Origin: Cruorifilaria tuberocauda
Lineage: Eukaryota > Nematoda > Chromadorea > Rhabditida > Onchocercidae
Length of the DNA: 64,000 nt
Direction: 5' to 3'
Assembly (NCBI GenBank): GCA_013365365.1
Contig: JABVXU010000049.1
Span: 124,001-188,000, forward strand
The notes under the pieces were generated by a model. The model ran no database searches. It had not been told where the DNA came from and saw only the letters and a program-made list of their open reading frames with translations. A program made the position numbers and the translations under genes. Each line of letters opens with the position of its first letter. Positions within the stretch are counted from its first letter, which is position 1. Positions 18,992 through 27,174 of the stretch are shown here, one piece after another.

Positions 18992-21900
18992 TTACAAGAA
19001 TGTGTCATGTCCGGAGGATGAGATGCTGCAACGAGAGTTTCCGATCGAATTCCTTCTCCGTTTCTCAGATAATAGAGCGGTATATTGCGCAGGTGTTTCC
19101 TTTCCTCTAATATTTATTAATAACAGATTCCTACATGGGACATTCTTTTCATAATAAAAACTGAGCTGGATTCAAGTATTTAAACAAATAATGGAGTCAT
19201 GAAACGTTAAATATAATCTGATCAACTACTCTTTCATTTTTACCACCACTTTCACTACAAAGCAAATGTAAAACGCTCAGAGATGCACATTTTTTCCCTC
19301 TTATGCTTCTTTTGCGGTTTTTTTTTTATCGCAGATCATAATGACAATACGGGAAATTGAAAGTATTCAATATATGTGTAGGAAGATTTTTCGAACGCCG
19401 CAACTAAGACTAAACTAAGACGACCGTCAACTGACAGATGAAACATTTTGCTAATATGAAACTGCTATTTAGAAATTTGCAGCATCCAAATGTTGAACGT
19501 TTTTAATCCTATACATGAAGATGCTAGGAGTTTCTGCAATGAGTACAGTAGCGGTACAGTGATCTTTGAATTAAATTTATATCATTTTTGGATCATGTAT
19601 TACTATTACACTTCCATGGTAATGGCATCCCTGAAACTGCCTTTCATCCGCTGGTCCAAAACAACGAGGTCCATTAACCAGTTTAACAAATCCGCTGATT
19701 AAATTGTAGATAGATCATATGATTCATCTCTAGTTGGTTAACACGATATTGTTTTATGCATTGTTCTTTGGACCTTCTATCCTCAATATTTCGACAGCGA
19801 TTATCCTCATTCTTTTTTTTCCAATTGACTGTTTGAATTTTCGAAATCTAAAATAAACGTAAACAAATAACCTTTTCGTAAAAGCGTCGCCTTGTTTGTG
19901 TGAATTCTGTTGCTTTTCGAATAATATAATCCATATTTTCGGCAAAAAAATACAAGCTAATGCAACATTTGCAGACATCGATATTGACATGCACAATGAT
20001 GTCGTTTGTATCTGAAAGCAACCATCACTTCATTCAAATTTTTTTCTCCATCTGTTATTCCAATCAATTTTTGACTTCATCCAACTACTGCATCTATATT
20101 ATCGCTTTTTTGAAATATCCAATAATTCTCTAATATTTTGCAAGAGCCTCTAGGCGAATTCATAAGTCTTTGCATAGCGATTTGCAACTTTTAAAATTTA
20201 ATAGAACAATTTTCAATTAATATCCATTAAATAACAGACCTGAAAATCACTACCTGTACCGAAAAAGAAAAATATCCATGAAAGCCACAAAACGCACGTT
20301 GCATACATTGTGAAATCAATAAAGCGTGTTTCATTGAAATTCTCTGGCACTTTTCGAGTTTTGATTGCATAAACAGTACATAGTACAATTAATGCAGCAT
20401 CATATACTAGCGAGTAAACGAAATGATGATCAGGAATATTACATTTGAGCACAACTTGATCTCGAGTTGGATAATAGTGCTTTGTACCTAAACAGTATCA
20501 ATGAAAACCTTTGTTATTTTGTCGGTTTGTGAAATGTATTTAGTTCAACTCCAATTCAATGCAGCAACTGTGAAGAAATGAGGTGAATTTACCAGGTGGA
20601 ACAATGAGAAGCCAAATAAGTGACCCAAAAAGTTGACAACCGACGAGAGATGCTGTTAAAAAGACTTGTGACACAGGCGAAATGCACATTGGTCGTTGCA
20701 CTGAACGATGTGAAAAAATTGGAGCTATCCGGTTAGTTTTAACCAGAAGAGCTGCGTATTAACATGAGGATGCAAATCCAATACCTGGGAGAATAAAGAA
20801 AGATATAAAAATATATTCTTGGAATAAGATGAACTGAAAAAATTAAGTTTTCAAGAATTTTCAAGTCAACATTGCAAAAATTAACAGTTCTTTTAATGGC
20901 ACAGTTAAAAACGGTTGGCCTAGAAATGAGTACAAAAGTCATTGCATAACACATAATCATTGCTACCAGTATAATATAACTAAGCTCACGTCCAGATGCT
21001 TTTATCACCGCTGTTTCGTGATTCCTGGAAGAAAATATCATTCTTTAATATTTTTCACCAAGTGTTTTCAGTGTTGAAAGGACTCTTTTTCATAAATGCT
21101 AAATGGAGAAGTCAAAGGAAGTTCTGATATTCACAACTCTGTGAATAAGAACATCAACTTCGTTTGGCAATTTAAAAATTTTCCTCATTCTTTTATAACT
21201 GCATTTATTTGGTTCGCTTGTTTCCATTAACTAATCTTCTATTAACACAAATCAAATACAAATTCGGATTTTCAGTAATTCCTCACATTTATAACCACTT
21301 ATAAAATTATTCTCTTATTAAATATTGCTTTACTTGAGACACTAATTATTATGATAAATCTTCAATTACACAAGTTCGAGATACTTCATGGGCAAAAGCA
21401 TGAACATGATTTTTATCAAAAATTGCTACCTTCTTTATCGTAATACAAGTATGGACCAAAAAGTAAACCTGTGGTGGAGATATGGCACAATTTTGCTTCT
21501 GAAAGACTTGCTGATTATTAGATCATAAAAATGCTCCAGTGCGAGATTCTGAGTCGCTAGCAAATTTAATTTACCATATGTCATCCATCTTGGCTTAAAA
21601 TGAATACGCCAGTTATAGTGAATGGCTCTGTTCCATTAAAAAATAGTTTTGAAGGCGAGAAATCATCAACAAATCTGAGATAATTGATTGATAATGATGC
21701 GGTTATTATTTTTTCAGCATTTACCTTTTACATAGTCATAAATATGCAAACCTCGAATATATGATAATTACACCAATTGCTGAGCAAATACCAATGATGG
21801 CAAATAAAGTAGGTGTTATTGAATACCTGAAAAGAACTGCATACATCTTGGATATCCATTTGCCAGAAATGGAAGAAATAATAAAGTATAATTTCACACC

Positions 21901-24900: not shown

Positions 24901-27174
24901 CCAAGGATACATACGTCCAGTTGAAGTGCAATGCAATGTCAATCATTGCACGTGCTTTATGATTATCACTGGGCACCGTCCTCAAAAAACTGATCAGTTG
25001 ATTGCCCAAATTCACAAAACAAAATATAAATTAAGCATTAATTTATCTTTGAAGAACTCAACATGAAAATTATAAAACAGCTATGAATCAAATTGTAACG
25101 CTTATTACCTCGCGAAGTACTCAAAACGTGTTTTGTCATGAGATCTGCATTGGTACTTGCTGGACTCACTTGAACTATCTTGAACAGTCTTAAAAGATTA
25201 GCTGCCTAAAAAATAAAGCAAACAAATTTTTGATTTACAACTGATAATATATATCATAATCCTCTTTTACTCACTACGTAGCTCTGGATGGAAAATTTTC
25301 TATGGATTTATCTCCCAGTGTATTCCTGTATGAATAAAAATTCTAAATTTCAGCATACTTAATCGTTTTCAATAAATTTAAGTGTTTAAATTATTTATTT
25401 ATGTTACCCTATATTATTAGTCGCCTCTTCTATTCATAAATTAGTTTTTGAGCTATGAATTGCTAAATACATGCATGATAAAAATTCTGCGTCTTTGTTT
25501 TAAAACAGGATTTTACCTGTACAGTAATGGAGCTACAACTACCACCGACAACTGCAGCAACACTTTTGCGTAACATTTGTCGATTCTTTGGAAGGCTACC
25601 ATCACGACATTGGTATTCAGATAAATCAGTCGAGCCAATCATATCACGGACAAAGTCAAGACTCTGATTAAGAGCATAAGCTGGATTTGAGCATGAATCC
25701 AATATAAAAGCACCCTAAAGATTTATTTACGTAATATGCAACATTAAAGCAAAATTATATTGAGATTATTGGTATTATCCAGGTGGTGTCATAAACCGCA
25801 GTAGAATTTCAGTTAATTTTGCAAACTTGAGTAAATATATAATGCAAACATTTCTATCATAGTCAAGACGCATTCTGAGAGGAATGTTATTTCATATGGT
25901 ATTAAAGAATTATTTCAACTGACATCAGTAGTGCAAATTCAAACCAAAACTTTTGCTTCCTTTTTTTTTGAAAAGTGTCAAAATTGCATTATTCCAGCAT
26001 AATTCACCTTATTAGCTCGAACTATACATCAACAAAGTAACTTCTGATATATTCAAACTACTGGTTTAAGTCGAAACATAACAGATGCCACTCCCTGTAT
26101 CATTTCCATCTCACTCTAAAATTTAGAGTGAGTATTAATCAATTTCGAGAAGCTTAATTGAATAAAAAATGAGAAAACAACAAACCAGTTTATAACCACT
26201 CAAGAATTAATAACATCCAATGCGTATAACATTGCTTCCAGTTATGTACACCTCTTAAAAAAACATTACAATTCTATCTAAGAAATGGTGGACCTAATCA
26301 GTTAAAGAATAATCTCTTCATTGCTTCACCCCTGATTTTGTGACACTGATTCGTCATCCGCATGTCGAACACATGACCATTTCGATTCAATGTATGATCA
26401 GTCTACTAATACATTCTGATTTTCTTATTTCAAAAGGAAACTTTTCAAAAAATTCAGGGAAACAAACTGTGTCTCAGCAATAACACCACAAGGTTGATCC
26501 GGCGAATCACTTTTTGCGTGAACCGAGAAAACTCCACCTATGATGATATCACCAGGTATCTTAATTTGGCGTATATTTGGTGATTGCAAACATGTATCAT
26601 CATTAGACATTTGCTGAAAGATATAAACGACTTTTATTGTGATAAAATTCTTGTCAGTATGAAACGTTTTCCTTACTGATTTATTCTTATCATTCATATC
26701 AGACTATCATTCAATGATGGATGATATACATTACTCATGGAAATGATTTTGCGAAAATTCTCAAATGTCCTTATCCCAAACAGGGTGATAGCAGTGACTT
26801 AGTTGTTAAGTAAAAGAAATGAAGATGAGGGAAGGATCTCAAGATCGAAGTAAAATTCCGGTATTCCTCTTATTTTAGCAAATATATTATATTAGAATTA
26901 AAGTTAATAAATTAACATTACAACAGTGATAGCAAATAAATAGATAACATTTCATAAAAATAAGAAAGTATCGAATGCGAAGTAGCCTCAGATTCAAGGT
27001 GCTATAATTTTCTTATACTTGGAATATCTTAAAAAATCCTAACGGATTTGACCCCGAGATGATAATGCAGAATAAAAGATTGGAAACGGGTTCAATTGCG
27101 AGGAAAGAAAATACCTTTTCAAACGAATCCATGTTTGCTAAGATGTGCATAGTCAAAGACAGCAATGAAAGCAT
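18992..27174 (-). CDS. Metabotropic glutamate receptor, group-II-like, frame broken as read
   Basis: Class C GPCR; binds glutamate through an extracellular Venus-flytrap domain and signals through G proteins. Order: signal-peptide exon 27174-27115; flytrap exons near 26613-26464 (IPGDIIIGGVFSVHAK), 26250, 25714-25517, 25205-25109, 24980-24850, 24780-24650, 24380-24240, 24165-24047 and 23930; later flytrap exons at 23645, 23285 and 23095; Cys-rich exons near 22290-21910 (DEICCWACGKC, ITCVDCDEGWWPTTD); seven-helix exons down to 19872; tail 19106-18992. KTRKVPENFNETRFI marks helix 6. Helix 3 TNRIA followed by QRPMCISPVSQVF is closest to mammalian mGluR2/3. The tail ends DTFL, a class-I PDZ ligand. 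Lesions: frame losses near 26243, 25136, 24155 and 20935, probably also 24880, 24400-24650 and 22060-22220; an in-frame TAA at 20757-20755 in helix 3; the invariant Arg of NRIARIF reads Pro. One flytrap exon (NDP..LLPG region) was not found. Either a decaying mgl gene or assembly error. Confidence 0.85.

Follow-up and report, generated by a model that had tools for sequence, protein, structure and literature searches.

The nematode Caenorhabditis elegans carries three metabotropic glutamate receptors, and mgl-1, the one placed in group II by sequence, is expressed in the AIY interneurons, lowers excitation at least partly through the inhibition of adenylyl cyclase, and is required for fat accumulation and for starvation responses, as described in PMC5028190. 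In our protein search, proteins of the mgl-1 type were found in many nematodes, free-living and parasitic. Here we describe the mgl-1 orthologue of the filarial nematode Cruorifilaria tuberocauda, found in a 64,000-nucleotide stretch of contig JABVXU010000049.1 (assembly GCA_013365365.1, positions 124,001 to 188,000; hereafter the window, whose own numbering is used unless another contig is named). This gene, the only copy found, is very probably a recent unitary pseudogene.

Identity and structure of the locus

The minus strand of the window from 27174 to 18992 holds the filarial orthologue of C. elegans mgl-1, with 20 exons in order, 19 introns, and both a start and a stop codon present, the exon-intron structure being a composite of several protein-to-genome alignments. 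The ATG at 27174 is also the point at which the gene models of Brugia malayi, C. johnstoni, and Toxocara canis begin, and the stop codon (18994-18992) was read straight from the bases, with both ends agreeing exactly with the limits of 18992..27174 given in an initial annotation of this DNA.

A protein collection was searched with the exon read-through, with X placed at the breaks, and the seven best matches came from Onchocerca flexuosa, Elaeophora elaphi, O. ochengi, B. malayi, Acanthocheilonema viteae, Setaria digitata, and Dirofilaria immitis, at 70-78% identity across the whole query. The mgl-1 proteins of T. canis and Caenorhabditis lie further down, and among the matches listed each nematode protein with a gene name (from T. 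canis, C. briggsae, and C. remanei) is an mgl-1. When the paralogue on contig C292 was used as the query, a different set was returned, including proteins named mgl-3; the searches made for this comparison were those with mgl-1 and with the C292 paralogue. The class C seven-helix domain (PF00003) is detected at the locus with 96.4 and 38.8 bits, both above the curated cut-off. As the best matches are of the mgl-1 type and the seven-helix part is nearest mGluR2 and mGluR3 among solved structures, the locus is identified as the nematode group II receptor mgl-1.

Lesions in the mgl-1 reading frame

Lesions were located with our own protein-to-genome dynamic programming aligner, which admits GT/GC-AG introns in all phases, frame-shift states, and stops at a penalty, using 12 orthologous proteins from nine filariae, Thelazia callipaeda, T. 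canis, and Steinernema hermaphroditum as references. Seven frame breaks are recovered with all 12 references, at 26243, 26202-26208, 25139, 24790, 24660-24663, 24260-24263, and 20784, as is a TAA in helix 3 at 20761-20759, and a TGA in the cysteine-rich linker at 22289-22287 is recovered with 11 of the 12, the A. viteae model being without that exon. The breaks at 26243, 26202-26208, 25139, and 24790 fall within exons, with that at 26202-26208 consisting of a several-base deletion together with a frame break. Additionally, about 90 bases (24875-24790) align to no reference, although the flanks on both sides are well conserved; when this missing part of the ligand-binding domain was sought by tblastn within 24501-25200, nothing better came up. 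The lesions strike the ligand-binding domain, the cysteine-rich linker, and helix 3, as laid out below (all on the minus strand).

18992..27174, minus strand: mgl-1 orthologue, disabled; 20 exons, 19 introns
26468..27174, minus strand: exons 1-2 (27174-27115, 26613-26468), N-terminus and start of the ligand-binding domain, in frame
26186..26253, minus strand: exon 3, two lesions, frame break at 26243 and short deletion with break at 26202-26208 (12/12 references)
25517..25714, minus strand: exon 4, in frame
25109..25205, minus strand: exon 5, frame break at 25139 (12/12)
24651..24980, minus strand: exon 6, degraded at 24875-24790, with a break at 24790 and a second at 24660-24663 near the 3' end (both 12/12)
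24260..24378, minus strand: exon 7, break at the 3' end, 24260-24263 (12/12)
23026..24161, minus strand: exons 8-12 (24161-24043, 23930-23834, 23644-23497, 23281-23188, 23083-23026), in frame
22215..22316, minus strand: exon 13, cysteine-rich linker, TGA at 22289-22287 (11/12) and irregular junction near 22214 (offset 9/12)
20886..22063, minus strand: exons 14-16 (22063-21900, 21826-21752, 21024-20886), end of the linker and first helices, in frame
20593..20784, minus strand: exon 17, helix 3 onwards, out-of-frame join to exon 16 (20885/20784) and TAA at 20761-20759 (both 12/12)
18995..20487, minus strand: exons 18-20 (20487-20240, 20011-19872, 19130-18995), rest of the seven-helix domain and C-terminal tail, in frame

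We did not count the offset near 22214, where the gene models of relatives are also irregular, an event at 22177 seen with two of the 12 references, or the events at 26699 and 26801 (the latter a TAA), which appear with no reference but L. sigmodontis, a model that is extended at its N-terminus. At the junction concerned, LIK/DEICCW (22214-22063), the models of O. flexuosa, O. ochengi, D. immitis, and E. elaphi retain extra residues, that of A. viteae omits the exon, those of L. sigmodontis and C. johnstoni splice elsewhere, and those of B. malayi, Setaria, and Thelazia join directly; a non-GT donor common to filariae may be present here.

The initial annotation had claimed at least five breaks. 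Its missing bases between GVH and LEAM (near 26243) and between ADL and HDK (near 25136, here 25139) recur with all 12 references, as does its TAA in helix 3. The break that it placed in a T-run before LSLNPRHDK (about 24155) is absent, the exon reading YFLSLNP in frame from 24161, but a real break lies about 100 bases away at the end of the preceding exon (24260-24263, 12/12). At the KRT/GIGF junction the frame offset is real, with all 12 references placing it across the intron 20885-20785, but the coordinate of 20935 is 50-150 bases off. It had not listed the lesion at 26202-26208, the degraded stretch 24875-24790 with its offset at 24790, the break at 24660-24663, and the TGA at 22289-22287.

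Copy number and genomic position

The assembly searched comprises 71,680,031 bases (71.7 Mb) in 1,108 contigs, and is possibly incomplete; short contigs may be absent. A protein search of it, with 28 candidates scored, returned this locus and weaker paralogues on contigs C292 and C366, with no second mgl-1, and a DNA search likewise returned no second mgl-1, only the locus itself and one 101-base match to a paralogue. As a single locus with its 19 introns kept, it is neither a processed copy nor a recent duplicate. Proteins of mgl-1 and of the unc-63-like nicotinic receptor alpha subunit (nAChR), which lies at 44940..49251 in the window, are listed on contigs of equal size in A. viteae (74,645) and in L. 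sigmodontis (72,554), from which we infer that the two genes share a contig in each; this fits synteny of mgl-1 and nAChR in those species. Because the locus is single copy, keeps its introns, and apparently shares a neighbour with its relatives, it most likely represents the original mgl-1, still at its original site.

Control genes from the same genome

Assembly noise was our first hypothesis for the breaks, and it was rejected after a test on six other genes of the same genome, aligned with the same aligner and parameters. Two of these lie in the window and one is the paralogue mgl-3; of four regions retrieved on contigs C1, C306, C144, and C832, the set takes the first two, and it leaves aside the retrieved flanks.

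44940..49251, minus strand: unc-63-like nAChR, 503 codons, 473/503 identical to A. viteae, no break against the A. viteae model
16439..17534, plus strand: glutathione S-transferase, 197 codons against O. volvulus GST1, no break (start given as the first aligned residue, not a determined true start)
Contig C292: mgl-3 without its first 158 codons, some 805 codons by subtraction, unbroken against the A. viteae mgl-3
Contig C1: cytosolic HSP90, 711 codons, no break
Contig C306: EF2, 850 codons against the C. elegans reference, no break
Contig C199: PRP8, 2,329 codons, 43 introns, one event flagged

Across these 5,395 codons there is, on our reading, no in-exon break. Under a uniform error rate, the chance of seven breaks in mgl-1 would be P about 9e-7 with zero control events, or about 6e-6 if the flagged PRP8 event is counted as a break. 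That event lies near 101489 on contig C199, where one of the 43 introns seems to begin with AT instead of GT; we take the event for an intron with an AT start, with an error there being a further possibility. Searches for U12 and U6atac RNAs found nothing, with their positive controls also silent.

The outcome in some controls depends on the reference used. With the human EF2 as reference a single break appears; with the C. elegans one, which has a nematode insertion at that point, there is none. For nAChR, no break appears with four of the eight references (P0122, P0124, P0123, and P0132), and one break each with P0121, P0125, P0127, and P0130. These four breaks fall in the interval 48223 to 49041, in or close to exons 2-3, a region over which database models conflict; P0122 and P0124 skip the junction, which P0132 does not show. 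The exon 2/3 junction of this gene (48672-48549) lacks a clean canonical in-frame splice, and several filarial models disagree there too.

The first 158 codons of mgl-3 were excluded as their exons are inverted at the contig start, and every break obtained with three references, together with one TAA, falls within this excluded, forced part (contig positions 146-645). These exons occupy the first bases of the contig (C292:14-856), in the orientation opposite to that of the remaining exons, which is probably a misjoin at the contig end, and possibly a real inversion. Alignments of paralogues to distant references, the only kind made for the C366 paralogue, gave more events and were not used as controls: mgl-1 against C292 yields four frame events, mgl-1 against C366 one TAG, and mGluR2 against C366 two frame events.

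Protein change and selection

The window translation of mgl-1, with X at breaks and stops, was aligned with 14 orthologues, with six uncertain stretches masked, and nAChR was aligned with 12 orthologues, with one stretch masked. A change was counted as private when it fell in a column without gaps in which all the other sequences agree. The window mgl-1 has 18 in 343 such columns, compared with 0-8 in 325-333 for nine other filariae, and the window nAChR has none in 195, with 0, 0, 0, 1, 1, 2, and 9 in seven other filariae.

mgl-1 private changes: Avit 0/325, Oflex 0/325, Ooch 1/326, Dimm 7/332, Bmal 5/330
mgl-1 private changes, continued: Eela 1/326, Cjoh 7/332, Lsig 8/333, Sdig 1/326, Tcal 13/338
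nAChR private changes: Avit 0/195, Lsig 0/195, Eela 0/195, Bpah 1/196, Ooch 2/197, Dimm 1/196, Sdig 9/204

Over 660 columns the window mgl-1 is 82.4-85.9% identical to the nine filariae, which are 85.5-97.7% identical among themselves, and the window nAChR is 92.0-96.1% identical to its seven. The terminal branch leading to the window sequence has a length of 0.145 for mgl-1 and 0.035 for nAChR, a ratio (divided by hand) of 4.2, the highest among species present in both trees. The protein-level evidence points to relaxed purifying selection on the window mgl-1.

Explanations for the disabled gene

Gene loss is favoured because the orthologues are intact, the controls from the same genome are, on our reading, free of in-exon breaks, no second copy was found, two stops and a degraded stretch are present, and protein change is in excess. 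Of the two possibilities that the initial annotation set against each other, gene loss and assembly error, the former is thereby supported, with the orthologous proteins of other filariae open where the window copy is broken. Several points weigh against this conclusion. The case is built from assembled sequence and protein comparison, and the control set is small, of our own choosing, and not quite silent. For the breaks at 24660-24663, 24260-24263, and 20784, each of which is close to the end of an exon or directly at it, an atypical splice site might give the appearance of a frame break. Selection was measured at the protein level, and the trees were used for branch length only because many of their nodes have low support. 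Taken by itself, the rate signal would be modest because other species also have high values, namely Thelazia in mgl-1 (13/338), S. digitata in nAChR (9/204), and L. sigmodontis, whose branch ratio of 3.0 is the next highest.

That the living worm has a whole gene and that assembly or base-calling errors have spoiled this part of the draft is very improbable. Several of the seven breaks shift the frame by one or two bases, as is typical of sequencing slips, and the aligner also flags one event in PRP8; however, error at such a rate is difficult to reconcile with the six controls, two of them in the window, and would neither increase amino-acid change at invariant columns away from the breaks nor degrade a 90-base stretch, and slips do not readily yield a deletion of several bases. 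A disabled second copy, whether a duplicate or a retained haplotype, with a working mgl-1 elsewhere, is highly implausible, since the protein and DNA searches of the assembly give only this locus and the C292 and C366 paralogues, and the locus retains its introns and, judged by the equal-sized contigs, the same neighbour as in relatives; in its favour is the possible incompleteness of the assembly. We give next to no credence to the idea that the gene still works, whether through atypical splicing or as a truncated product. The irregular models of relatives near 22214 and the apparent AT start of a PRP8 intron indicate that non-GT donors may occur in filariae, but four breaks lie inside exons and both stops inside conserved exons, the ligand-binding domain, linker, and helix 3 are each damaged, and the mgl-1 protein changes faster than the neighbouring gene.

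Under the preferred explanation of a unitary pseudogene, purifying selection on mgl-1 would have ended in the lineage of C. tuberocauda, after which the gene would have gathered small frameshifts, its two stops, and the one stretch that is degraded. As the ligand-binding domain, linker, and helix 3 are all damaged, it could presumably yield no whole receptor and no complete ligand-binding or seven-helix part, and would be dead in the animal. Its death appears recent on the scale of filarial divergence because identity to A. viteae over the unmasked exons remains at 85.9%; as a rough estimate, 0.02-0.055 neutral substitutions per site may have occurred since constraint ended, assuming ~2.2 replacement sites per codon.

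Implications

By analogy with C. elegans, the loss would remove the glutamate-gated inhibitory signal that interneurons receive through MGL-1, which acts in the starvation response and fat accumulation, and a worm without mgl-1 would be a natural knock-out of the group II glutamate pathway; mgl-3 is retained open over the part tested, from codon 159. Such a loss would caution against viewing the receptor as a universal anthelmintic target, and would provide an example, open to dating, of a parasite that has lost a neuronal gene. The mechanism is most likely the ordinary one, in which selection ended and mutations accumulated. We regard it as doubtful, though conceivable, that the loss was adaptive, with constantly fed host tissue making the hunger and foraging switch of mgl-1 needless, in which case sister species may show other stages of decay. 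A literature search found no report of mgl-1 loss in filariae, although such a search is not proof of absence.

Bacterial-type genes in the assembly

A bacterial-type coxA, open over 520 residues, lies around C419:43419-44756, flanked by what we take by eye to be coxB and ctaB. The cluster looks like a Wolbachia-type one; a search with the coxA protein returned no record named Wolbachia among the best 80 kept. Contig C355 holds an open HSP90-type frame of 639 residues.

Comparison with known systems

The closest counterparts are the mgl-1 genes of filariae and other nematodes, to which the window locus corresponds exon by exon over the whole protein, the domains listed for the seven best matches being ANF_receptor, NCD3G, and 7tm_3. 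In contrast to the window copy, whose frame is broken seven times and stopped twice, the ten proteins used from filariae and Thelazia are open over 871-976 residues. Mammalian mGluR2 and mGluR3 are the top solved-structure matches of the seven-helix part (E about 1e-67), but are distant, with only the receptor class and group as common ground. Within the same genome, mgl-3 is a paralogue in the same receptor class, but is another gene, and is open from codon 159 to its end when compared with A. viteae mgl-3. The locus resembles unitary pseudogenes in general, in being the sole copy found, in place and with its introns kept, in carrying several independent lesions, and in having intact relatives; it differs from them in nothing of kind, only in that the gene concerned is an unusual one.

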